From Terriglobia bacterium (GTDB taxonomy: Bacteria > Acidobacteriota > Terriglobia > JAIQFV01), in the NCBI GenBank assembly GCA_028716525.1, contig JAQUPQ010000002.1, positions 62,001-126,000 on the forward strand: a stretch of 64,000 nt of DNA. Direction: 5' to 3'. Shown here piece after piece: positions 49,553 through 60,302 of the stretch (its first letter is position 1; every line of letters starts with the position of its first letter). Both the position numbers and the translations under genes were made by a program. The notes under the pieces were generated by a model, which made no database searches, was not told the DNA's origin, and saw nothing but the letters and a program-made list of their open reading frames with translations.

Positions 49553-50653
49553 ATGAAATGTGCAAGGACAGCGGGTTTATTCTTGGGCCTGGCTCTACTT
49601 TTGAGCGGAAGCCTTTGGGGCGAACAACCTCACTTTGTGAACGCCCGTCTGCAGACCGTTTCTATGGCCGGAAGCTTGGCTTCGCAGTTGGAGTCCATCA
49701 TCGCAAAACAGAATGAACCGGCTTGGATTGCCTATTCTGTCCCGGCGATCGATGGAAGTGGACATATGTGTTGCGGGGAATATGAGGATTCAATGGGATG
49801 GACCTCCTGCTCCGGGTGCAGACTTGAAGGCAAACAGGGCAGCGCCGCAATTGATAGAGAAGGTGCCCAGCCTCGTGAAGTCAAATTGGAATCGCCTCGA
49901 TCTGTAAATATCCTGATCCGTGTTGCCGAACGGCGTGTGGACCGGATCCGCGTGTTTTCATCGGATTGTGATTTAGATGCCGGAGGATTGTCTGTTTACT
50001 TTGTACCCCATGCCGCCTCCGAAGAGAGTATAAAACTTCTTTCCAAATGGGTCCTGGAGAATGGCGACGAGGCGGCCGGCCATCGCTCTCTGACGGGGCA
50101 AGGCGTGATGGCGATTGCCATGCATGCCGGCGTGGCCGCGGAACAGGCACTGGACGGGTTCACGGCTTCCTCCCAGCCGGAATCTTTACGGCGACAGGCA
50201 GTGTTCTGGTTGGGAAGTGTTCGCGGGCAGGCGGGATTTGAGGTTCTCAAGCGGCTCGTGACAAATGATCCCAGCGAGAAAATCCGCGAGCATGCCGTAT
50301 TCGCATTGTCCATCAGCAAGGTGCCACAAGCAGTCGAAGCCATGATCCGCACGGCCCACGACGACCCTAGTGCCCACGTTCGGGGCCAGGCTTTGTTCTG
50401 GCTGGCGCAGAAGGCGGGCCGGAAGTCCGTAGGAGCCATTAGCGACGCCATTCAGAATGACCCTGCAACGGCGGTCAAACGCCGGGCCGTATTTGCCTTG
50501 AGCCGGCTTCCAAAAGATGAGGGCATACCAAAACTGATTGAGGTGGCCCAGACCAACCGCAACGCCGCAGTCCGGAAACAAGCAATTTTTTGGCTGGGAC
50601 AGTCGAAAGATCCGCGCGCCCTCAATTTCATCGAACAGCTTCTGCTGCACTGA
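49553..50653 (+). CDS. Exported HEAT-repeat protein with cysteine-rich head
   Basis: Secreted 366-residue protein. Signal peptide 1-23 (LFLGLALLLSGSLWG). Residues about 55-130 form a distinct head holding a Cys-rich segment (HMCCGEYEDSMGWTSCSGC), possibly disulfide-bonded or metal-binding. From about 205 on there are five or more HEAT repeats (ESLRRQAVFWLGSVRGQAGF; EKIREHAVFALSISKVPQA; AHVRGQALFWLAQKAGRKS; AVKRRAVFALSRLPKDEGI). It is 31 bases after the previous HEAT gene, with AAGGGA ahead of its ATG, so the two are cotranscribed. Confidence 0.85.
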   Translation: MKCARTAGLFLGLALLLSGSLWGEQPHFVNARLQTVSMAGSLASQLESIIAKQNEPAWIAYSVPAIDGSGHMCCGEYEDSMGWTSCSGCRLEGKQGSAAIDREGAQPREVKLESPRSVNILIRVAERRVDRIRVFSSDCDLDAGGLSVYFVPHAASEESIKLLSKWVLENGDEAAGHRSLTGQGVMAIAMHAGVAAEQALDGFTASSQPESLRRQAVFWLGSVRGQAGFEVLKRLVTNDPSEKIREHAVFALSISKVPQAVEAMIRTAHDDPSAHVRGQALFWLAQKAGRKSVGAISDAIQNDPATAVKRRAVFALSRLPKDEGIPKLIEVAQTNRNAAVRKQAIFWLGQSKDPRALNFIEQLLLH

Positions 50654-51198
50654 TGGGTTAAGTTGCTTTGTTCGAGTGAAGAAAATCGAGGCCGGCCCAT
50701 TTGAAAAGCATAATTTGACGTGATTGGCGAACTGAGCAATCGTCTTTTGGTTGATCCTGGGATTATGTGCAAAATCAGGGAAAAGCCCACGATCGCCCGC
50801 TGGGGATTGTGGCTACCCAGCCCTCTCCGTTCCATGCTCCTGGATGCCACCTCGGGGCATGAAGAACTGCCTCGAAAAAAAATGCCGGGGAGAGTCTTTT
50901 GCTCAGAAAACATCCGGAAGGTTCTCTGCGCAGTCTCGGCGACCTCAGCGTCTCCGCGGTGAACGATCGTCCAAAGACCGAATCATTTGTTTTCATGTCC
51001 TTGGGTGGCCACCACCCTGCGGGAGATCCAATTTCATGGTCCTGGGTGCGAAGAGGCCCATGAGAGACCGCCGTGAGAAGATGCTAGGACCCGAAAGAGC
51101 GCCTTCACCCCAAGAATATTTGGATGATGGCGTGACCTTTCCTTTGTCAATGAGTCTAATAGGGAGAGCAATTCATCTTTGATTTCAGGGGGATTGAT
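50654..51198. other. Intergenic region with one dispersed repeat
   Basis: About 545 bases between the HEAT operon and the DUF4097 gene. I find no gene with a ribosome site; the open frames here are read through a repeat at 50920-50961 that recurs inside rsgA. The DUF4097 gene has its own ribosome site and may have its own promoter near 51130-51170, without a clean consensus. Confidence 0.5.
50920..50961 (-). repeat. Dispersed repeat, copy 1 (intergenic)
   Basis: On the minus strand the 42 bases start CACCGCGGAGACGCTGAGG and end CAGAGAACC. Over the first 36 bases, 26 match the copy inside rsgA at 57229-57270 without gaps, and one frame reads HRGDAEVAETAQ against HRRDAEDAEKTQ there. Confidence 0.6.
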
Positions 51199-52020
51199 AT
51201 GCGTCGAAGTGTGCAGAGGGTGTTTGTTTTCGTGATACTTGGGTTGTTAGGGGCGACCTTCATCACGTTCGCATCCGAGAATGCAGATAAGAGGCTGGCG
51301 TGTGACCAGAATCATTCCTGGAATGACCGTTTGGAAACTCATTGCGAAATGCGTGAACAGACCATTCCCGCCACGGCCGGAGTCCTGCATGTTGATGGGC
51401 GTACCAATGGCGGCATTAGCGTGAAGGGTTGGGATCGTCACGAGGTTTTGGTGCGATCGCAGGTCCGCACCGCTGCTCCAAACAAGGCCGAAGCGGACCA
51501 ATTGGCTTCTCAGATCACTATTCAGACGAACGGAGCAGAAGTGCGGTCCGAGGGACCCACCATGGACAATGACCACAACTGGTCAGTCAGTTACGAGATT
51601 TTTGTGCCGCAGCAAACCAATTTGTCCTTGAAAACTCATAATGGCGGAATTCGCATCGCTGACGTTTCCGGGAACATTGATTTCAAGGCCTTGAATGGGG
51701 GCGTTAGTCTGGCACGCCTTTCCGGAGATGTTCGGGGAGGTACCACGAATGGTGGTCTTTCCATCGATTTGGCTGGAACGCACTGGGAAGGCCGCGGCCT
51801 CGATGTTCAAACTACAAACGGTGGAGTCCACATGAACGTACCGCATGATTATTCCGCCCATTTGGAAACGGGCACCGTCAACGGAAGTCTGAACATTGAA
51901 TTTCCTGTGACGGTTCAAGGAAAAATCTCGCGCCAACTATCCATGGATCTCGGGTCGGGTGGTGCCACGGTGCGTGCAACGACCACCAATGGCGGCGTGA
52001 AGATCTCACGTAAGAGCTGA
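51199..52020 (+). CDS. Exported DUF4097-type beta-solenoid protein
   Basis: Secreted envelope protein, 273 residues. The signal peptide covers 1-26 (VFVILGLLGATFITFAS). Residues about 60-270 form a beta-solenoid with rungs marked by Asn-Gly turns: RTNGGISVKGWD, KTHNGGIRIADVSG, ALNGGVSLARLSG, TTNGGLSID, TTNGGVHMN. GGGGGAT sits directly ahead of the ATG. It is the first of three DUF4097 genes in this locus and is followed by a strong terminator. Function is unknown; cell-surface or periplasmic adhesion or stress sensing are guesses. Confidence 0.83.
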   Translation: MRRSVQRVFVFVILGLLGATFITFASENADKRLACDQNHSWNDRLETHCEMREQTIPATAGVLHVDGRTNGGISVKGWDRHEVLVRSQVRTAAPNKAEADQLASQITIQTNGAEVRSEGPTMDNDHNWSVSYEIFVPQQTNLSLKTHNGGIRIADVSGNIDFKALNGGVSLARLSGDVRGGTTNGGLSIDLAGTHWEGRGLDVQTTNGGVHMNVPHDYSAHLETGTVNGSLNIEFPVTVQGKISRQLSMDLGSGGATVRATTTNGGVKISRKS

Positions 52021-52042
52021 GCTTCTTTGTAGTGCCTTCCTG

Positions 52043-52072
52043 CGGCCCTGGTGATTCCCAGGGCCGTTTTTT
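52043..52072 (+). terminator. Rho-independent terminator
   Basis: Perfect 9-bp stem CGGCCCTGG-TGATTC-CCAGGGCCG followed by TTTTTT, 22 bases past the stop of the DUF4097 gene. It separates the two sigma-factor units. Confidence 0.9.
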
Positions 52073-52239
52073 GGTCCGATCCTGTTATGCAAACTCCGAT
52101 TCGGTATTGAATCATTACCCCGCCGTTCCAGTCGAATCCCGTCCCCAGTGTAGTTATGATATTGTTCTAATCCCTTGTAACCTTTTTCGTTAGCCCCGGT
52201 ATTCATAGTTGACCGAATGTTCGGACAGGCTGGAGAAAC

Positions 52240-52803
52240 ATGACCGCAATCAGCGATCAAGTGTTGATGCAATCGGTCCGCGATGGGGAACTGGACAAGT
52301 TGGGTGTCCTGTTTGAACGCCATCATGGAATGCTGTTTAACTTTCTTTTGAAGATGACCTCCGATCGGCAGTTGAGTGAGGACCTGACCCAGGAAGTGTT
52401 TGTGAGGATACTGAAATATCGCCATACCTATCGCGGAAACAGCCAGTTCACTACCTGGATGTTTCAGATCGCGCGGAATGCGCGGGTCGATCATTTCAGA
52501 AAATATTCCGGAGAAGAAACGGTGAAAAAGGACGAGCAGCTGGAGGAATTCGCGGCATCAGGACCCTCGCCGCGAGAACGATTGGAGCGGGAGCAGGAAA
52601 TCAAGCTGCTGCATGGGGCCCTGCAACAACTGTCCGAGGAGCAGCGCGAGGTTCTGGTGCTGAGCCGTTTTCACGGGATGAAATATGAACAGGTGGCGGA
52701 GATTCTGAATTGTTCAACAGGAGCCATAAAGGCGCGGGTCTTTCGCGCCATGCAGGATTTGAAGCAACATTTCAATTCACTGGAAGGTGAAAAAGTGTCA
52801 TGA
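52240..52803 (+). CDS. ECF RNA polymerase sigma factor
   Basis: Third ECF sigma factor of the window, 187 residues. Region 2: FERHHGMLFNFLLKMTSD, LSEDLTQEVFVRILKY, FTTWMFQIARNARVDHFR. Region 4: MKYEQVAEILNCSTGAIKARVFRAM. The stop overlaps the anti-sigma ATG by four bases. It probably drives this second unit (anti-sigma, two DUF4097 proteins, ABC ATPase). The promoter was not identified. Confidence 0.93.
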   Translation: MTAISDQVLMQSVRDGELDKLGVLFERHHGMLFNFLLKMTSDRQLSEDLTQEVFVRILKYRHTYRGNSQFTTWMFQIARNARVDHFRKYSGEETVKKDEQLEEFAASGPSPRERLEREQEIKLLHGALQQLSEEQREVLVLSRFHGMKYEQVAEILNCSTGAIKARVFRAMQDLKQHFNSLEGEKVS

Positions 52804-53615
52804 GATGCAAAGAAGCTCAAGGAATGCTTGCCGATCTGTGGGCGGAGCGTTTGGAAGATTCACAACGACGCGCTTTGAACGATCATCTGGTCGGCTGTTC
52901 AGCTTGTCGGGTGGAGCAGGAGTCGTTGACAGCGCTTTGGGTGAAGCTGGGGGCTCTCCCTGAGGAAAAACCTGATCCTTCTATCCAGGCACGTTTCCAA
53001 GGGATGCTGGAAGGATACCGGGAGGGGTTGGAACGGACTCGAAATATCGATCGAGCTGGCGATCCGTCAAAGAAATGGTTTGGTGGCCTGCTGCCGTTCC
53101 GTCTGGCCCTTGAAATTTCCGCTGCAGTTCTGGTGTTAGCCGTGGGATTGTTGGCGGGCCGACTCCTTGGGGGTCCGGACCAGCGGTCGACTGAATTGGC
53201 TCAACTGCGCGAAGAAGTCCACGACATGCGCCAGATGGTCAGTGTATCCCTCATGAAACAAGAATCCGCCAGCGAGCGTTTGAGGGGAATCAGTTGGAGC
53301 GGACAGGTCAACCACCCCGATCCGGAGCTGCGGCAAACCCTTCTCAACACCCTGAACTTCGATCCCAGCGTGGATGTGCGCTTAGCTTCGATGGATGCCA
53401 TTTCTCGATTTGCCGACGATCCCGTTCTTCGAAAAGGCCTGGTTCAATCGTTGCCCCGTCAAAGTTCGCCTTTGGTTCAGATCGGCATCATCGACTTGCT
53501 GGTGCAATTGCAGGATCGGCAGTCCATCGAGGCGTTGCGTCAATTGTCCAACGATGCGGAAGCCAATCAAAGCGTTCGTGAACGCGCCCAATGGGGAATC
53601 AAGAAACTCAGCTAA
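52800..53615 (+). CDS. Membrane anti-sigma factor with periplasmic HEAT-like domain
   Basis: A 271-residue anti-sigma factor. The zinc head spans 1-45 (MRCKEAQGMLADLWAERL...HLVGCSACRVEQ). A membrane helix (LEISAAVLVLAVGLLAGRLL) is at about 103-122, then a short coiled coil (about 128-165). The periplasmic domain (about 175-271) is a run of HEAT-like repeats: DVRLASMDAISRFADDPVLR, LVQIGIIDLLVQLQDRQSIE, SVRERAQWGIKKLS. An anti-sigma factor with a HEAT sensor is unusual and links this unit to the HEAT proteins upstream. ATGA overlap with the sigma gene. Confidence 0.85.
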   Translation: MRCKEAQGMLADLWAERLEDSQRRALNDHLVGCSACRVEQESLTALWVKLGALPEEKPDPSIQARFQGMLEGYREGLERTRNIDRAGDPSKKWFGGLLPFRLALEISAAVLVLAVGLLAGRLLGGPDQRSTELAQLREEVHDMRQMVSVSLMKQESASERLRGISWSGQVNHPDPELRQTLLNTLNFDPSVDVRLASMDAISRFADDPVLRKGLVQSLPRQSSPLVQIGIIDLLVQLQDRQSIEALRQLSNDAEANQSVRERAQWGIKKLS

Positions 53616-53626
53616 GGAGACGGCAC

Positions 53627-54499
53627 ATGAAGTATTTGCAGGCCTTCGTTCTCGTTGTTGTTGTTGTCGGGTTGAGCATTTCGCCCTATGCCAAGAGCGT
53701 TGATCATCTTCAGTTTGGGGAGGAGCAAGCGGACACGCTTCAAAAGGCGGTGATGTTCTCCAACCCCGCTGGCGCCAAACACGTGAACGTCGACAACGTG
53801 AATGGATATGTTCATGTAGTTGGATATGATGGAACGGCCGTGCAGCTTGTGGCTCATCGAACGATTCGCGCGGCCTCAAAAGAAGAAATCGAACTGGCCA
53901 AGAAGGAAGTGGAGCTGAAGATCACAGAAAAGAATAATACGGTCGAGTTTTATGTCGATGGGCCTTTCCGCTGCCAGGGTCGAACTTCCAGAGAAGATTC
54001 GCGCCGAAACCGTTACAACGTGAATTATGACATCGATTTGCAGGTTCCTCGGGATTCCGGGTTGTACCTCCGGACAATTAATCATGGCGATATTCAGGTC
54101 GAACGGGTCGATGGGGACTATGACGTTAAAAACATCAACGGGAAAGTCCAGTTGACCGATATTGCCGGTGCGGGGCATGCCTATTCACTGAACGGTGGCG
54201 TCCGTGTGGAATTCAGCAAGAATCCGCCGCGTAATTCCTACTTTGGAACGCTCAATGGCAATGTGGATGTGGCCTTCCAACGGGGCTTGTCGGCCGATCT
54301 TCGATTCAAAACATTCAACGGCAGTGCCTACAGTAGCTTCGCGGTAACGCCGGTGGCGTTGGAAAGCGGGTCGGGGGAACACCGCAATGGAAAATTCATT
54401 TACAGGAGTAATCGCTCCTCCGGCGCCCGTGTTGGCAGCGGGGGGCCGGAACTTCAATTTGACACATTCAACGGAAACATTCACCTCACCGAACGGTGA
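53627..54499 (+). CDS. Exported DUF4097-type beta-solenoid protein
   Basis: Secreted 290-residue protein. Signal peptide 1-24 (AFVLVVVVVGLSISPYAKS). The solenoid begins HVNVDNVNGYVHVVGYDG, and rungs follow with RTINHGDIQVERVDG, DVKNINGKVQLTDIAG, YSLNGGVRVEFS, GTLNGNVDVAF and KTFNGSAY. Turns here are Ile-Asn-Gly or Leu-Asn-Gly in place of the Thr-Asn-Gly of the 18.5 kb copy. AAGGAGACGG precedes the ATG. It starts 12 bases after the anti-sigma stop, so it is part of the same operon and is a likely output or ligand of that pathway. Confidence 0.84.
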   Translation: MKYLQAFVLVVVVVGLSISPYAKSVDHLQFGEEQADTLQKAVMFSNPAGAKHVNVDNVNGYVHVVGYDGTAVQLVAHRTIRAASKEEIELAKKEVELKITEKNNTVEFYVDGPFRCQGRTSREDSRRNRYNVNYDIDLQVPRDSGLYLRTINHGDIQVERVDGDYDVKNINGKVQLTDIAGAGHAYSLNGGVRVEFSKNPPRNSYFGTLNGNVDVAFQRGLSADLRFKTFNGSAYSSFAVTPVALESGSGEHRNGKFIYRSNRSSGARVGSGGPELQFDTFNGNIHLTER

Positions 54500-54517
54500 A
54501 TGTTCAGGAGGAGTCGT

Positions 54518-55354
54518 ATGAAACGGTTTAGATTTCTTGGAGGCGTTGCGATTGTTCTGATCTTGGCAGGCACAGCGTGGGCTCAAAATGCCGGCGACGA
54601 CCGGGTAACCGTTCCACTCTCTGATCCGTCGCGCCCCGCCACGGTGAAAGTGAATCTTATCCGGGGCAGCATTACGGTCCACGGGTACGCGGGCAAGGAT
54701 GTCATTGTGGAGGCCCAGGGGGGCAGGGAAGACCGGGTGCGAAAGACTGACCGAACCGAAGCCGAAGGTTTGAAACGAATTTCGAACGGGCCTTCGGGGC
54801 TTACGGTTGAAGAGGAAAACAACGTTGTGTCGGTTAGCACCAGCGTGATGCGCCAACCTCAACAAATTTCTATTCAGGTCCCCATGCACACGTCATTGAA
54901 ATTGAAAACCATCAATGGCGGAAACATTGATGTCGACCAGGCGGATGGTGAGATTGAGGTGAACAACATCAATGGCGGCGTGAAATTAACACACATTTCC
55001 GGGAGCGTTGTGGCCCATGCCTTGAATGGGAACGTGGTCGTGGCCTTGGATCGTGTCGATTCGGGCAAGCCAATGTCGTTCAGTTCCCTGAATGGAAACA
55101 TCGATGTCACTCTCCCGGCCGATACGAAAGCCAATATCTCAATGCGGTCAGATCGGGGGGAAATTTACAGCGACTTTGAAATTCAATTGAAGCCCAATGC
55201 GGGGAAGCCGGAACCCGAGAATCTACGGTCAAAGAATGGGCAGTTCAAATTCCACGTGGATAGCACCATGCTGGGGACCTTGAATGGCGGCGGACCGGAA
55301 TTCCAATTTAAGACCTTCAACGGAAATATTTATATCCGGAAGGGAACGAAATGA
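54518..55354 (+). CDS. Exported DUF4097-type beta-solenoid protein
   Basis: Secreted 278-residue paralogue of the preceding gene. Signal peptide 1-22 (GGVAIVLILAGTAWAQ). Rungs: RPATVKVNLIRGSITVHGYAG, KTINGGNIDVDQADG, VNNINGGVKLTHISG, VAHALNGNVVVALD, SSLNGNIDVTLP; the last repeat ends GGGPEFQFKTFNGNIYIRKG, a tail nearly the same as that of the previous gene (GGPELQFDTFNGNIHL). This shared C-terminus suggests a recent duplication or a sorting signal. CAGGAGGAG precedes the ATG, 18 bases after the previous stop. Confidence 0.84.
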   Translation: MKRFRFLGGVAIVLILAGTAWAQNAGDDRVTVPLSDPSRPATVKVNLIRGSITVHGYAGKDVIVEAQGGREDRVRKTDRTEAEGLKRISNGPSGLTVEEENNVVSVSTSVMRQPQQISIQVPMHTSLKLKTINGGNIDVDQADGEIEVNNINGGVKLTHISGSVVAHALNGNVVVALDRVDSGKPMSFSSLNGNIDVTLPADTKANISMRSDRGEIYSDFEIQLKPNAGKPEPENLRSKNGQFKFHVDSTMLGTLNGGGPEFQFKTFNGNIYIRKGTK

Positions 55355-55516
55355 TCGCCCGTTTCGTCTAATTGTTATAGCGCCGGGTTTTTGGCGGGGT
55401 TGATTGCCGTTTATGGTTCAGGCGGCGTGCGCGCTGCTCTGTAGATGATCAATCCGCTTTCGCCTAACTGGAGAACCAAGGAGCGCAAATCCCAAATTGA
55501 GCTTGGAGAGAATGTG

Positions 55517-56230
55517 ATGTCGACAGAATCTGCTGAGGTTTTGATTCACCTGCAAAACGTGAGCAAGTTCTTTTATACCGAAGAAGTGGAGACTCATGCC
55601 TTGGAGGGAACGCATCTGGAGATATGTCGTGGAGAATATGTCGCGGTTGCAGGGCCCTCGGGGTGTGGAAAGTCGACGCTGCTGTCCATTCTGGGTTTGC
55701 TGGACACACCGACCGAGGGTCAATACCTCTTGAATGGACAGCCCGTAGAGAGCCTGCAAACCTCCGAACGGGCCCGGGTTCGCAACCGCGAAATAGGATT
55801 CATTTTTCAAAGTTTCAATTTGATCGGAGATCTCACCGTATTTGAAAATGTGGAACTGCCCCTGACCTACCGGGGCATGCGAAAACCTGAAAGGAAAGAA
55901 CGTGTTCTGAACGCATTGGAGCGCGTGGGAATGGCTCACCGGCAAAACCATCTTCCCAGCCAGCTCTCCGGCGGTCAGCAGCAACGAGTGGCCGTAGCCC
56001 GGGCGCTGGTGGGAGAGCCTTCCATTCTGTTGGCCGATGAGCCCACGGGAAATCTGGATTCTAAAAACAGCGATGCGGTGATGGGACTTCTGAAAGAACT
56101 TCATCAGAACGGTGCCACCATCTGCATGGTCACGCACGATGCCCGTTTTGTCGAGGTCGCCGACCGCACCATTCGTTTGTTTGACGGCCGCGTGGTGGAG
56201 GATGCGGACAACAAGGGCATCGACGCTTAA
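55517..56230 (+). CDS. ABC transporter ATPase, LolD/MacB type, without permease
   Basis: ATPase subunit of a MacB/LolD/FtsE-type ABC transporter, 237 residues. Walker A GPSGCGKST, Q-loop FIFQSFNLIGDLTV, signature LSGGQQQRVAVARAL, Walker B ILLADEPTGNLDS and switch His in VTHDARF are all intact. These ATPases power mechanotransmission through an FtsX-like permease. No permease follows: the next gene is on the other strand, so the partner is encoded elsewhere. It lies 162 bases after the DUF4097 pair and may be driven with them. The ATG at 55517 follows GGAGAG. Confidence 0.92.
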   Translation: MSTESAEVLIHLQNVSKFFYTEEVETHALEGTHLEICRGEYVAVAGPSGCGKSTLLSILGLLDTPTEGQYLLNGQPVESLQTSERARVRNREIGFIFQSFNLIGDLTVFENVELPLTYRGMRKPERKERVLNALERVGMAHRQNHLPSQLSGGQQQRVAVARALVGEPSILLADEPTGNLDSKNSDAVMGLLKELHQNGATICMVTHDARFVEVADRTIRLFDGRVVEDADNKGIDA

Positions 56231-56263
56231 GGCAAATCAGGTAAACGAGACGCAATTGAATAG

Positions 56264-56318
56264 CCTGGGGCGTAAGCCCCAGGTACCGATCCCAAACGCC
56301 GCCGAGCCCTGCAGGGGC
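56264..56318. repeat. Twin intergenic hairpin (REP-like)
   Basis: CCTGGGGC-GTAA-GCCCCAGG (perfect 8-bp stem, GTAA tetraloop) is followed 23 bases on by the self-complementary GCCCTGCAGGGGC. No T tract follows. This two-hairpin layout resembles the dispersed intergenic repeats of environmental bacteria. Confidence 0.5.
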
Positions 56319-56379
56319 GACATAGAAAATAGCTTTTGCCCTGCTTGTCGGCTTCATCGGTGAATTGTTTCCAAGAACG

Positions 56380-57510
56380 TCACCATGGTTTTCTATCGCG
56401 ATAGATTCGCTTTTGCTCCTTCATAATATTCCTGATTCTTCTGTCCCTCTCCTGCCGTGCCCATACATCTTGTTTCGATCTGAGAAACTCCTCTTCCCGT
56501 TGGAGCTTACGAAAGCTCTGGAGCCTTCCCTCGTCGAGCGTGCCCGCTGACACAGCCGATAGAACTTCACATCCGGGTTCCGTTTGATGGTGGCAATCGC
56601 TGAATCGACAATGCTGTGCCAACGATTCAATATCAGGAAACGCGTGCTGCAATCCCTCCTCGGCATCCCAGAGCTGCAATTCACGCATACCCGGCGTGTC
56701 AATGAGAATTCCGCCCCCGGGTAGAAGCAACATTTGGCGCGAGGTGGTGGTATGGCGGCCGTGGGCATCGTCCTCGCGAATGGCTGCCACTCGCAGACGA
56801 TCTTTGCCCAAAAGAGAGTTTATGAGTGTGGACTTGCCCACGCCCGAAGAGCCGAGAAAGGCAGTTGTCCCGGCTCCGCGGAGACAAGCAGCGAGTTCCT
56901 CCATGCCATCACCGCCGAGCGCGCTAGTCACGAAAACGGGGACGCCCATGGCCGACGATTCAGTTTCCAGAATCCATGGCAATGGATCGTCGCAGAGATC
57001 CGCTTTGTTGAGGACGACCATGGGTCGCGCTCCACTTTCCCACGCTAAAACCAGATAGCGCTCAATGCGACGGAGATTAAATTCGGCGTTGAGGGAGCTG
57101 ACGAGAAGAACTGTGTCCACATTGGCGGCAACTATCTGTTCCTCCGTGGTTTTTCCGGCAATCTTCCGCGAAAATTTGGTGCGTCGGGGAAGGACGCGAT
57201 GAATAATCGCCTGAAAGACAGAACGGGTTGGCCCCTGCGTCTTTTCTGCATCCTCTGCATCTCTGCGGTGAACGGTCAAATCAAAATTTGCCATCACCCA
57301 ATCTCCAACCACCGGAAGATCAGCACGAGAGTCAGCTTCATATCGTTGTCTTCCCGACAACTCTCCCCATCCTTCGCCCGCTTCTGCCCACAGGCGATAC
57401 CGTCCTCTCTCTTCTCCGGCAACCCGAGCCGGCTTCAAGCCGATCGAGTGTGTGTCGTCCAAGCGTGAATCAAATAATTTGCACCAGCCCAGTTGTGTCA
57501 ATGAATACAT
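56380..57510 (-). CDS. rsgA: Ribosome small-subunit GTPase RsgA with in-frame repeat insertion
   Basis: Circularly permuted GTPase that helps late 30S ribosome maturation, 376 residues. OB-fold domain residues about 30-115; then the permuted G domain with NKAD (G4), SALGGDG (G5), GSSGVGKSTL (G1) and DTPGMREL (G3); then the zinc domain HCRFSDCHHQTEPGC. In the OB-fold, between GDWVMANF and the conserved IIHRVLPRRTKFSRK, there are about 24 extra residues including HRRDAEDAEKTQG. They are encoded by a dispersed DNA repeat (57229-57270), also present at 50920-50961. The OB-fold loop evidently tolerates it. CTGGAG precedes the ATG. Confidence 0.92.
   Translation of the reverse strand: MYSLTQLGWCKLFDSRLDDTHSIGLKPARVAGEERGRYRLWAEAGEGWGELSGRQRYEADSRADLPVVGDWVMANFDLTVHRRDAEDAEKTQGPTRSVFQAIIHRVLPRRTKFSRKIAGKTTEEQIVAANVDTVLLVSSLNAEFNLRRIERYLVLAWESGARPMVVLNKADLCDDPLPWILETESSAMGVPVFVTSALGGDGMEELAACLRGAGTTAFLGSSGVGKSTLINSLLGKDRLRVAAIREDDAHGRHTTTSRQMLLLPGGGILIDTPGMRELQLWDAEEGLQHAFPDIESLAQHCRFSDCHHQTEPGCEVLSAVSAGTLDEGRLQSFRKLQREEEFLRSKQDVWARQERDRRIRNIMKEQKRIYRDRKPW
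57229..57270 (-). repeat. Dispersed repeat, copy 2 (inside rsgA)
   Basis: On the minus strand it starts CACCGCAGAGATGCAGAGG and contains a degenerate nine-base unit (GCAGAGnnn). It is in frame and encodes residues 81-94 of RsgA (HRRDAEDAEKTQGP). It matches the intergenic copy at 50920-50961 in 26 of 36 bases. Confidence 0.6.
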
Positions 57511-57929
57511 TTGGAATTCTCCAGGTTTGAGTGCGGCATGAATTCACACGCCGCACCATGTGTAGGGTTTTATCAACAGATATAAATTGAGAAGGGGAGA
57601 GGGCTGGCCTTACCGCAGGAGCCGCAGAAATCCTTTAAGCAGATTCGACGGAGACAGACCCATCCCGTGATGAGCTTTCGTATCGCATAGGCCTACTCCT
57701 CGGTGAGATTTAGTACCCGTTCGCGAGTGGATTATACATTGTTGGGTGTTTCAGGGGAAGTGGCATCATGGGCTAAGGTTTGAGGTGTGAGGAGCGAGTC
57801 CGTAATCAGATTCTTGCGGTACGAGCGGGACTTACGCTATGTCACAGTTTTCTCTCTGCCGACAGGGGCAGCCCAATGCTTCGCGGCGTGCGAATCATTC
57901 ATTATTGCCAGGTTCCAATTTATGCGGCT
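57511..57929. other. Intergenic region, no gene seen
   Basis: About 420 bases between rsgA and a small secreted protein gene, both on the minus strand. No frame with a ribosome site and no strong hairpin were seen. Confidence 0.5.
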
Positions 57930-58355
57930 TCACTTCGTCAGTTCCGGCTTCTTTTCTTTCTGCTCTCGATCTCTCAGTAGCTGCTCAATCTCCGCGAGGC
58001 TCGAAGCCGTATCAATCATGATAACCTGACTGCCTTTTCGCTCGATGAAGAAGTAGGTCTTCCCTTTGGCGTTATATTCGCAATAAGCCGCAGATTCGTC
58101 GCCATAATTAGTGAAGTTCCTTTGCGCGAGAAGGGCAGAACCGAGTTGTTTTGATACACCCAGGCGACCGTCCAAGTAGCCCTTGAAGTAATCAGAAGCA
58201 CCTCGAACTGTCCCCATATCCCTCGTGCGAACATTTGTGGACGACTTATCAGAAGTGGAGAGCGATTGAGAAGAGGTACTGACGGCAAGAGAAAAGAAAA
58301 CAACAATGAGAATTGTGACGATTATGAAGAATTGCCGGTTTGGTTTCTTGAACAT
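57930..58355 (-). CDS. Small exported protein of unknown function
   Basis: A 141-residue protein, not recognised. The signal segment (FFIIVTILIVVFFSLAVS) covers about 9-26. The mature part is a Ser/Thr-rich linker and then a compact region with GYLDGRLGVSKQLGSALLAQ, YCEYNAKGKTYFFIERKG (residues about 92-109) and IDTASSLAEIEQLL. One Cys is present. AAGGAGG precedes the ATG, so it is a real gene. Base use is somewhat AT-richer than its neighbours. Confidence 0.65.
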   Translation of the reverse strand: MFKKPNRQFFIIVTILIVVFFSLAVSTSSQSLSTSDKSSTNVRTRDMGTVRGASDYFKGYLDGRLGVSKQLGSALLAQRNFTNYGDESAAYCEYNAKGKTYFFIERKGSQVIMIDTASSLAEIEQLLRDREQKEKKPELTK

Positions 58356-58586
58356 ACGTTGCCTCCTTGGTTGTTCGTGTTCAGGGCAGATTTACATGGG
58401 TTAATTGAAAATCAGAGTTCTCATGGCACCTGCGTCCAGGTTCGATTTACTACAATACTTCTATAGACACTGATTCGCAAAGAATGGTTCCGAAGAAGTT
58501 GTATAAGCTGAGAGGCGGAGCGATAAGGGTGCGGAAAAGTTTAGGAGGCGAGTTTGAGAATCACCACGGGGAACAAAGAAGGTTGG

Positions 58587-59078
58587 TCAATTGTTGCGTC
58601 TCGATCGTTTGGCGGATTCAATGTCGCCGAGGTGATGAGTGGCGTGTCCAACTTCGGCGCGAAGGAGTTGAGCCACGGTTGTCTTGCGGGGAACGCCACC
58701 CGGGGTGTCGAGAATTCCGACGGAGTGCTGAACATTCCGGGGATTGTGCGCAATGAGCGAGGATATATGTTTGGTGAGCGCCTCGAAAAGTTGAAGAGCA
58801 GACTCGACGGGAGCACGGTCGTAAGAAAGCCGTTTCATCCAGGCCTTGCTCGGATGGACCCAAGACCAGTCGTAAGTGCCGCCCGGCTTTCCAAGAGCCA
58901 CCAGCACCACGTGGCAGGCAATGAAATTATCTTCAACCAGATGATGGACGTACTCGGCGATGGACCATCCCTCAGCGCCGCCACGGATGGCGAGATCATG
59001 AGCTCGCAGGCCGCGGATAGATTTGCGGATCCGATTCGGAATTGAAGACCATTGTTTGACAACGGCGGGGGTTTTCAC
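58587..59078 (-). CDS. DinB-like metal-binding four-helix protein
   Basis: DinB/YfiT superfamily protein, 163 residues, a four-helix bundle that usually binds a divalent metal with three His and often transfers thiols. The visible His residues are in IAEYVHHLVEDN and EVGHATHHLGDIE, which matches the family. The start is GTG at 59078 with AAGGAG five bases upstream. Substrate unknown; some members use bacillithiol or mycothiol. Confidence 0.8.
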   Translation of the reverse strand: MKTPAVVKQWSSIPNRIRKSIRGLRAHDLAIRGGAEGWSIAEYVHHLVEDNFIACHVVLVALGKPGGTYDWSWVHPSKAWMKRLSYDRAPVESALQLFEALTKHISSLIAHNPRNVQHSVGILDTPGGVPRKTTVAQLLRAEVGHATHHLGDIESAKRSRRNN

Positions 59079-59184
59079 GCGGGCTCCTTATCGGGGAAGT
59101 GTTCCCCGGGAATGCTGAATTGTGTGATCGGTTTGAGAAACATATCACCACAGTCGGGCATATTAACGGAGAGCGTAACCGAGC

Positions 59185-59592
59185 TTACCGTTTGGATTTC
59201 CGTTTCTTTCTGGGTCGGCGAATTTCCTGCGCGAAGTACCACTCATGCCCTTCGAGATCCGTCGCGCCGTAACGCCGATGCCCGTACTCCGTGTTGGTGG
59301 GTTCTTCGAGAATAGCGGCGCCGGCTCGGCGTGCCCGCTCGAAGTGCTTGTCAACATCCTTCACGTTGACATACAGGCTCTGAGTTGCCTGTCCGAGTCG
59401 CCTGGGATTGCGGTAGCCGGCGCCAGGGCGACCCATCATGACCACGGCGCTTCCCAGCTTCATGGCGGCATGGTTGGTCTTGCCGTCAGGACCTCGCATC
59501 TGAACGCCGTACTGGCGAAATCCGAATGCTTTGGCCAGGAATTTCAAGACGCCGTCGACGTCTTCATAGTAAAGATACGCTGTGATGGCCAT
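59185..59592 (-). CDS. VOC-family (glyoxalase/bleomycin-resistance-like) protein
   Basis: PhnB-type vicinal-oxygen-chelate protein, 135 residues. Typical landmarks: YLYYEDVDGVLKFLAKAFGF, AAMKLGSAVVMMGRPG, VNVKDVDKHFERARRAGAAI, and EEPTNTEYGHRRYGATDLEGH, which carry the likely metal ligands. The basic tail (RRPRKKRKSKR) is unusual for the family. A weak GAGGA site lies ahead of the ATG. It may protect against reactive aldehydes or antibiotics; not determinable. Confidence 0.85.
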   Translation of the reverse strand: MAITAYLYYEDVDGVLKFLAKAFGFRQYGVQMRGPDGKTNHAAMKLGSAVVMMGRPGAGYRNPRRLGQATQSLYVNVKDVDKHFERARRAGAAILEEPTNTEYGHRRYGATDLEGHEWYFAQEIRRPRKKRKSKR

Positions 59593-59642
59593 AAACCATC
59601 CTCGGTAGTCTTTGTTTGAAATGCCGGTCTGGGAGATTGATC

Positions 59643-59720
<78 letters not shown>

Positions 59721-60302
59721 AATCGTTTTCTAAAACGCCATCAAACTACAAGAGAATATCCCGGATGTCAACGTGCCGCGGGCCGATCATTTAGGAATTC
59801 CGGAGGAGCCGTTACAACGATTGCAGCTTGCCCATTCCTTGAATTTCCAGTAAATTAGAGTGACACCAAGGGCTCCAATTCATAATGATTTCAAGGTGGC
59901 GGACGAGAGTTTGGAGCCGGCACTAATTTCCGCGCGGGCGCTTTCTTTTCGACACACTCAAAGGCTTTGGTTCTGGCTTCTCTGCCCAATTCAGCAGGCC
60001 CGCGTTGCATACGATCCCGAAATGAATTCCTTGCGCAATAGTCAAAATTTGACCCACGCTGCATATTGAGCAGTGTGTGAATAAAATGACACTTTTCGTT
60101 TTTAAAGTATTGCTGGAAAAAGGCATTGGAGCCAAGGGCGAGTGTAACGAGATTTGGCGTTCATGATGCCGGTCCTCGGTGCGGGCCGGGGCATCATCAC
60201 TTGTTTCTACGGAGAAGCCCGGCGTCAAGAAATGCCGGTGCGACCAAATGATATTGTCCAACCGTGGTCATGTGATTTGACGCGTGGTGGGATCAAAGGC
60301 GC
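59721..60302. other. Intergenic region ahead of the polysaccharide operon, no gene seen
   Basis: About 580 bases between tRNA-Pro and the epimerase-glycosyltransferase gene. Open frames here lack ribosome sites and homology. I see no convincing promoter pair, though one for the operon must lie in its right part. Confidence 0.5.

Follow-up and report, generated by a model that had tools for sequence, protein, structure and literature searches.

A short dispersed repeat found in frame within rsgA of a Terriglobia bacterium matches the terminal arms of genes for GxxExxY proteins, predicted PD-(D/E)XK nucleases

A dispersed repeat that lies in frame within rsgA of a Terriglobia bacterium belongs to a family of half-elements, and these half-elements form the terminal arms of genes for GxxExxY proteins (PF13366), a family of predicted PD-(D/E)XK nucleases. 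This assignment is new here; in the open-access literature we found no account linking the TIGR04256/PF13366 family to repeats or mobility. It points to an undescribed, nuclease-linked mobile element whose ends would account for many of the short repeats of bacteria and archaea that lack an explanation. We assign a probability of roughly 0.7 to this reading as a whole, i.e., to a mobile element made of nuclease and repeat which works in a REP/RAYT-like manner with another enzyme, and of whose terminal arm the rsgA insert is a solo copy. That the nuclease itself moves the repeat is what we infer from the observations below. Positions refer to the window, which is the entire stretch of 64,000 nucleotides that was analysed.

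The rsgA gene, encoding the ribosome small-subunit GTPase, occupies positions 56380–57510 on the minus strand; its open reading frame is intact (PF03193, E = 6.8e-55) and carries an insert near the N-terminal domain. Alignment to 11 homologues from relatives delimits an in-frame insert of 54 bp at 57232–57285 (minus strand; residues 76–93), with edges uncertain by a few codons. The 18 inserted residues are absent from all 11 homologues, the two nearest of which show an 18-column gap opposite to them; the underlying search had matches in 16 of 61 genomes, several being partial matches to other GTPases, and in this genome set the species and genus of the window are represented by the window's own genome alone. 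The original prediction had put the extra residues at about 24. It had rightly placed a dispersed repeat in frame inside rsgA, and the frame is kept open by an orientation and a length divisible by three, as had also been claimed. The solo arm spans 57232–57273 (minus strand; pattern match; 38.3 bits and E = 1e-10 with repeat model R1), and shares one end with the insert; RsgA carries the residues HRRDAEDAEKTQ here. The arm starts with GTTCACC, after which come four GCAGAG-like units at 8, 9 and 11 bp, an uneven spacing that departs from the 9-base period initially proposed for the core.

One arm would have inserted into the RsgA N-terminal domain, where homologues differ in length, and the GTPase may have been kept because the arm's orientation provides a stop-free frame and its length is a multiple of three. 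Alternatively, the residues could represent an old RsgA loop that mimics the repeat by chance, given that periodic DNA can be imitated by low-complexity coding sequence and that the insert sits where RsgA length varies. This explanation is already contradicted by the data: CACCGCAGAGACGCAGAG, with up to three mismatches, matches twice in the window where 0.05 matches are expected (two matches occurred in none of 100 shuffles), none of the homologues has the residues, and the rsgA DNA has both the outer GTTCACC and the four units that make up the architecture of the repeat.

In the 4.2-Mb genome 130 matches to the repeat pattern were counted, against 9 for a reversed-pattern control, so that further copies of the repeat do exist. 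The half-element consists of an outer TCACC and four CGCNGAG (GCNGAG) units at 8-, 9- and 11-bp steps, many copies being shortened at the inner end. Copies occur solo, as convergent pairs that form hairpins, or within a longer composite family; by eye, a single arm has no self-complementarity, and hairpins form from pairs only. The second copy in the window, at 50922–50964 (minus strand), is intergenic, as predicted, and scores 47.8 bits with model R1, a 44-nt model whose 14 training sequences include both window copies (47.8 and 38.3 bits). Reading the rsgA repeat side by side with positions 50926–50961 reproduces the 26 of 36 matching bases reported earlier. Both copies are real, but they are not equivalent elements, as the intergenic one is part of the composite family A (consensus of 15 copies). 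Members of this family in the loci examined (window approximately 50780–51080; 15 copies) contain the arm inside, with GACACCCGACACC tracts after it and a GGGCACCCAGGAGCATG segment before it.

Copies captured in coding frames are rare here. Of the 106 that were examined, 24 have an open frame extending over 50 codons or more to either side; Pfam was applied to seven of these and placed the repeat within a recognised gene in rsgA only. Most of the other 17 frames have fewer than three good units, are members of family A, or read the opposite strand. Near position 2550 of locus L023, a truncated arm yields GGAGGAG immediately ahead of the start of an HMGL-like gene, and its GGAG may serve this gene as ribosome-binding site. 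No Rfam family covered the repeat in 20 loci at the gathering threshold, or in window positions 50000–60000 at E values up to 1. The Rfam family Acido-Lenti-1 scored 35.6 bits at window 56248–56283 (minus strand), under its cut-off of 37, which L003 and L011 exceed. Since hairpins of the form TAGCCC..GGGC like those of Acido-Lenti-1 border Y1 transposase genes in this genome (L342, L343), this family may represent RAYT-associated REPs and not a structured RNA.

The first link between repeat and enzyme came from locus L207, where a convergent pair of arms encloses a single gene, that of a GxxExxY protein. PF13366 is present in 35 of 61 genomes (that of the window and its 60 relatives), and the gene flanks show inverted arms. 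When framing was defined as inverted arms scoring at least 30 within 180 bp per side, regardless of sequence type, framing was found at 37 of the 52 GxxExxY genes scored in relatives of the window, a set that excludes truncated PF13366 genes and five cut or oddly placed loci (L391, L399, L402, L405, L407). By the same definition, framing was seen at 0 of 138 other open reading frames from loci of this set, at 3 of 411 random windows taken there, and in 3.5% of 1500 pairs of mismatched flanks. Outside the scored set, L402 has an inverted pair by eye, and such arms were seen by eye at both GxxExxY genes found in viral contigs. In repeat-bearing genomes sampled across many phyla, two archaea included, 23 of 30 genes (vs 0 of 271 neutral windows) and 31 of 40 genes are framed, which gives 91 framed genes out of 122; the remaining 31 are without such arms. 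Examples of framed copies are those in the genomes of Geothrix limicola and Magnetospirillum sp. UT-4 (L459, L497, L501; L484, L493). A framed unit measures 492 bp in the median (approximately 460–560 bp). Periodic units, at least two on both sides, are present in the arms of 76 of the 91 framed genes compared to none of 15 inverted flanks of the RAYT type.

The genome of the window has its own GxxExxY gene with convergent arms (G000:C5:106929-107273). Both arms are matched (E = 7.7e-10 and 1.3e-9) by a repeat model built without them, which ties the rsgA insert directly to a GxxExxY unit. The repeat is dispersed, as the original prediction of a mobile short repeat implied, but it is not anonymous. 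Of the 12 genomes in which the repeat occurs 10 or more times, 11 have GxxExxY genes, vs 24 of the 49 with fewer copies, and the numbers of copies and of GxxExxY genes are modestly correlated (Spearman 0.38, p = 0.003); genome G007, with 21 copies, lacks a GxxExxY gene. PF13366 also occurs in 28 of 31 repeat-bearing genomes across phyla, a sample picked for holding a RAG-type repeat and therefore biased to the RAG arm class. Clustering of 9396 neighbouring open reading frames returned mostly phage structural genes, plus a GxxExxY cluster of six loci. Eleven convergent arm pairs are more than 400 bp apart; one holds GxxExxY, and in the other ten either ordinary genes or none could be recognised. 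A transposase was considered as the content of such long pairs and rejected; the frames present, named by eye, include HutH-like, flagellar motor-like, phage and TIR-like ones.

The GxxExxY proteins of L207 and L240 belong to TIGR04256 (147.5 and 137.7 bits; cut-off 35) and to PF13366, also named PDDEXK_3 (142.3 and 138.4 bits; cut-off 22). Pfam returned no other family for these two proteins, and thus no framed transposase gene of the kind that defines an insertion sequence. The motifs GxGxxExxY, D62, ExK and QxxxY are common to 24 GxxExxY proteins, in which D62, K74, Q86 and Y90 are invariant and E72 is nearly so, corresponding to the PD-(D/E)XK catalytic pattern. The structure predicted for the protein of L207 (pLDDT 94.7) has its best structural match in SSO0001 (4ic1; Z = 9.6, 100 residues, rmsd 4.4), which we take to be a Cas4; further matches are lambda exonuclease, restriction enzymes and archaeal Hjc. 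A Foldseek search with the same model gave no significant E-value (best 0.033), and a sequence search against solved structures detected no relative (best E = 0.3). Based on this modelling, GxxExxY is predicted to be a PD-(D/E)XK nuclease of about 120 residues with a Cas4/lambda-exonuclease-like fold.

Arms can be classed by the ending of their units as RAG, RAT or AA (8 of 91 were left unclassed). On a tree of the 91 proteins, computed from the protein core alone, arm class changes nine times, whereas shuffled labels require 25.1 changes on average, and none of 200 shuffles was as low. Shuffling labels within genomes, which removes host composition, gave a mean of 19.7 and a minimum of 12, with 0 of 2000 shuffles as low as nine; thirteen genomes contain more than one arm class. 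The best split of the tree separates 50 AG arms and one other from 5 AG arms and 27 others. Arm class thus tracks protein clade, and therefore an arm and its gene move together or evolve together as a pair. This pairing agrees with a nuclease that recognises its arm, and also with simple joint inheritance of one unit.

Comparisons between copies and between genomes outline the putative mobile unit. In genome G045, two units that are 88% identical share 428 bp from arm tip to arm tip, starting and ending at GAACCACGAAT and its complement, and their flanks are unrelated. G001 lacks, at the syntenic position, a unit that G002 has; the 62 bp left there may include a degenerate arm, so that the unit may have been lost from G001 and the site need not be an empty one. 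L427 had no match in G002. A gene-less hairpin pair is present in one phage and absent from a related one; it sits after a stop codon, ahead of the following gene. Target-site duplications were sought in the 91 framed units, with no consistent signal: direct repeats of at least 6 bp flank seven of them (control approximately 0.4%), and most units have none. Insertions are often common to closely related genomes, and many copies are therefore old; the genome comparisons captured no event of transposition, excision or cleavage. Relics or genes of GxxExxY also occur in several copies inside other repeat families (L430–L442 in G045; L443–L445 in G042), and these carrier repeats have inverted ends of their own (GAGCCTYTTGCAA.. 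and TAGTGTCCAGGAATTAA..). Internal deletion was considered for the repeated C-terminal fragments in G045 and discarded, since they sit in the larger repeat with its own inverted ends.

We propose that a full unit consists of an arm, one GxxExxY gene and an inverted arm, each arm being an outer TCACC with a short array of degenerate 7–9 bp units behind it (CGCNGAG in the present genome). The nuclease would cut or process arm units that it recognises as being of its own dialect. In this way full units, gene-less hairpin pairs (arm, spacer, inverted arm) and solo arms might spread, as REPs and REPINs do with RAYTs.

A different, unlikely explanation is that the arms are mobilised in trans by an insertion-sequence transposase or a RAYT, and that GxxExxY is a framed passenger. 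It is consistent with the presence of RAYT-type Y1 genes in 49 of 61 genomes, with the relation between Y1 number and copy number (0.27, p = 0.03), with the larger repeats with other ends that enclose GxxExxY genes or relics in G042 and G045, and with the copies that G007 maintains without GxxExxY. Against it speak the hairpins at RAYT flanks, which are of another kind and periodic in none of 15 cases, and the arm dialect, which follows the GxxExxY clade even within genomes. Moreover, no transposase was recognisable by eye in the eleven long convergent pairs, among whose genes Pfam was applied to the GxxExxY of L207.

Still far less probable is that the arms are terminator-like or regulatory hairpins which flank isolated small genes and spread by recombination, GxxExxY being a typical isolated gene. 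Pairs do form long hairpins, in G060 13 of 20 pairs continue their complementarity into the host flank, and most examined copies lie outside recognised genes. Against this explanation, none of the 138 other reading frames in the same loci is framed, single arms lack self-complementarity by eye, and arm sequence and protein clade co-segregate. The mobile nuclease-plus-repeat element is therefore the reading that we prefer.

The nearest known system is that of REP/REPIN sequences and RAYTs. As described by Bertels and Rainey (2011, PMC3116915) and Di Nocera (2013, PMC3733652), it has in common with the present element short dispersed repeats, inverted hairpin doublets, dialects that differ by species, and a gene for a single-domain nuclease that lies between its own repeats. 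The enzyme, however, is here a predicted PD-(D/E)XK nuclease, whereas RAYTs are HUH Y1 transposases. REPs are hairpins of 20–40 bp with a GTAG or CGTC tag; by contrast, the half-element is a TCACC-led tandem array of 7–9 bp units, and its unit pattern, unlike that of REP/RAYT, is kept across bacterial phyla and archaea. Periodic arms were found at none of the 15 Y1 genes with inverted flanks, which sets the repeat apart from the REP/RAYT class; 5 of 30 Y1 loci hold a copy (pattern, up to three mismatches), none framing the Y1 gene. Because Y1 genes carry REPs (15 of 24 have inverted flanks), they are no neutral control for framing. RAYTs as the mobilising enzyme were examined and rejected, as Y1 gene numbers follow copy numbers poorly: G005 has eight copies and no Y1 gene, and G041, G049 and G055 have 7–10 Y1 genes with 0–3 copies.

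Short gene-less pairs with terminal inverted repeats, such as define MITEs, are present. According to the review PMC10969869, MITEs and Rickettsia palindromic elements are likewise gene-less inverted-repeat units, some of them in frame within proteins. MITEs derived from insertion sequences depend on a transposase, whereas the gene framed here encodes a nuclease predicted to have another fold. The review also gives 44 integrations of palindromic elements in genes of one Rickettsia, from which the rarity of in-frame capture in the present genome differs. With Cas4 and lambda exonuclease-type nucleases GxxExxY shares the predicted fold and the pattern D, ExK and QxxxY; unlike these, it is a free-standing gene framed by arms, with no sequence kinship to solved structures detected.

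A widespread family of interspersed repeats thereby gains a likely cognate enzyme, and a widely held, uncharacterised nuclease family gains a testable function. The arm code matched to nuclease clade offers a ready specificity code for biochemistry, the REP-like lifestyle becomes linked to a second, non-tyrosine nuclease type, and one route emerges by which repeats add residues to conserved proteins. Going further, we consider it slightly better than an even bet that a so far undescribed class of mobile elements, spread over bacteria and archaea, has GxxExxY proteins as its founding enzymes, and that in it a Cas4-like nuclease would read the tandem 7–9 bp units of its own arms by a clade-specific arm code. 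Many unexplained short periodic repeats of prokaryotes (of the CACAGAG-, CACAGGAT-, CGCAGAT- and CACGAAT-type) would then be gene-less progeny, some of them domesticated in frame in essential proteins such as RsgA.

Among the matches listed, the three-unit pattern occurs at no fewer than 120 viral loci and the four-unit pattern at 117 or more genome loci; by record titles, they include Acidobacteriota, Planctomycetota, Bacteroidota, Chloroflexota, Verrucomicrobiota, Pseudomonadota and other phyla as well as the archaea Methanothrix and Thermoplasmatales. The reversed pattern, with up to two mismatches, had no hits among the listed viral and genome loci. At least 134 convergent adjacent pairs among these loci are separated by 1–200 bp and at least one by a gap of 0 or less, with short gaps dominating. 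Within the set of 61 genomes, 39 contain at least one copy, and copy-rich genomes keep a repeat dialect of their own.

Several variations on the arrangement of arms were observed. In G060 (L318–L337) arm pairs are near-perfect, with unit changes matched in both arms; the 13 pairs that extend complementarity into the host flank (score of at least 6; control 1.8%) do so for up to about 40 bp, as if they had inserted at the centres of terminator-like palindromes. Insertion at palindrome centres was dropped as a general rule, the signal being strong in G060 and the excess at GxxExxY units lying mostly in the outer 3–5 bp of the arm. In some Acidobacteriota relatives arms face outward (L398 and PF13366 fragments at G022:C3:4454-4806), either around GxxExxY or as tight gene-less pairs. 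Finally, in related phage contigs (L052, L097, L101, L152) the intergenic spacers are full of several unrelated repeat types that vary between phages.
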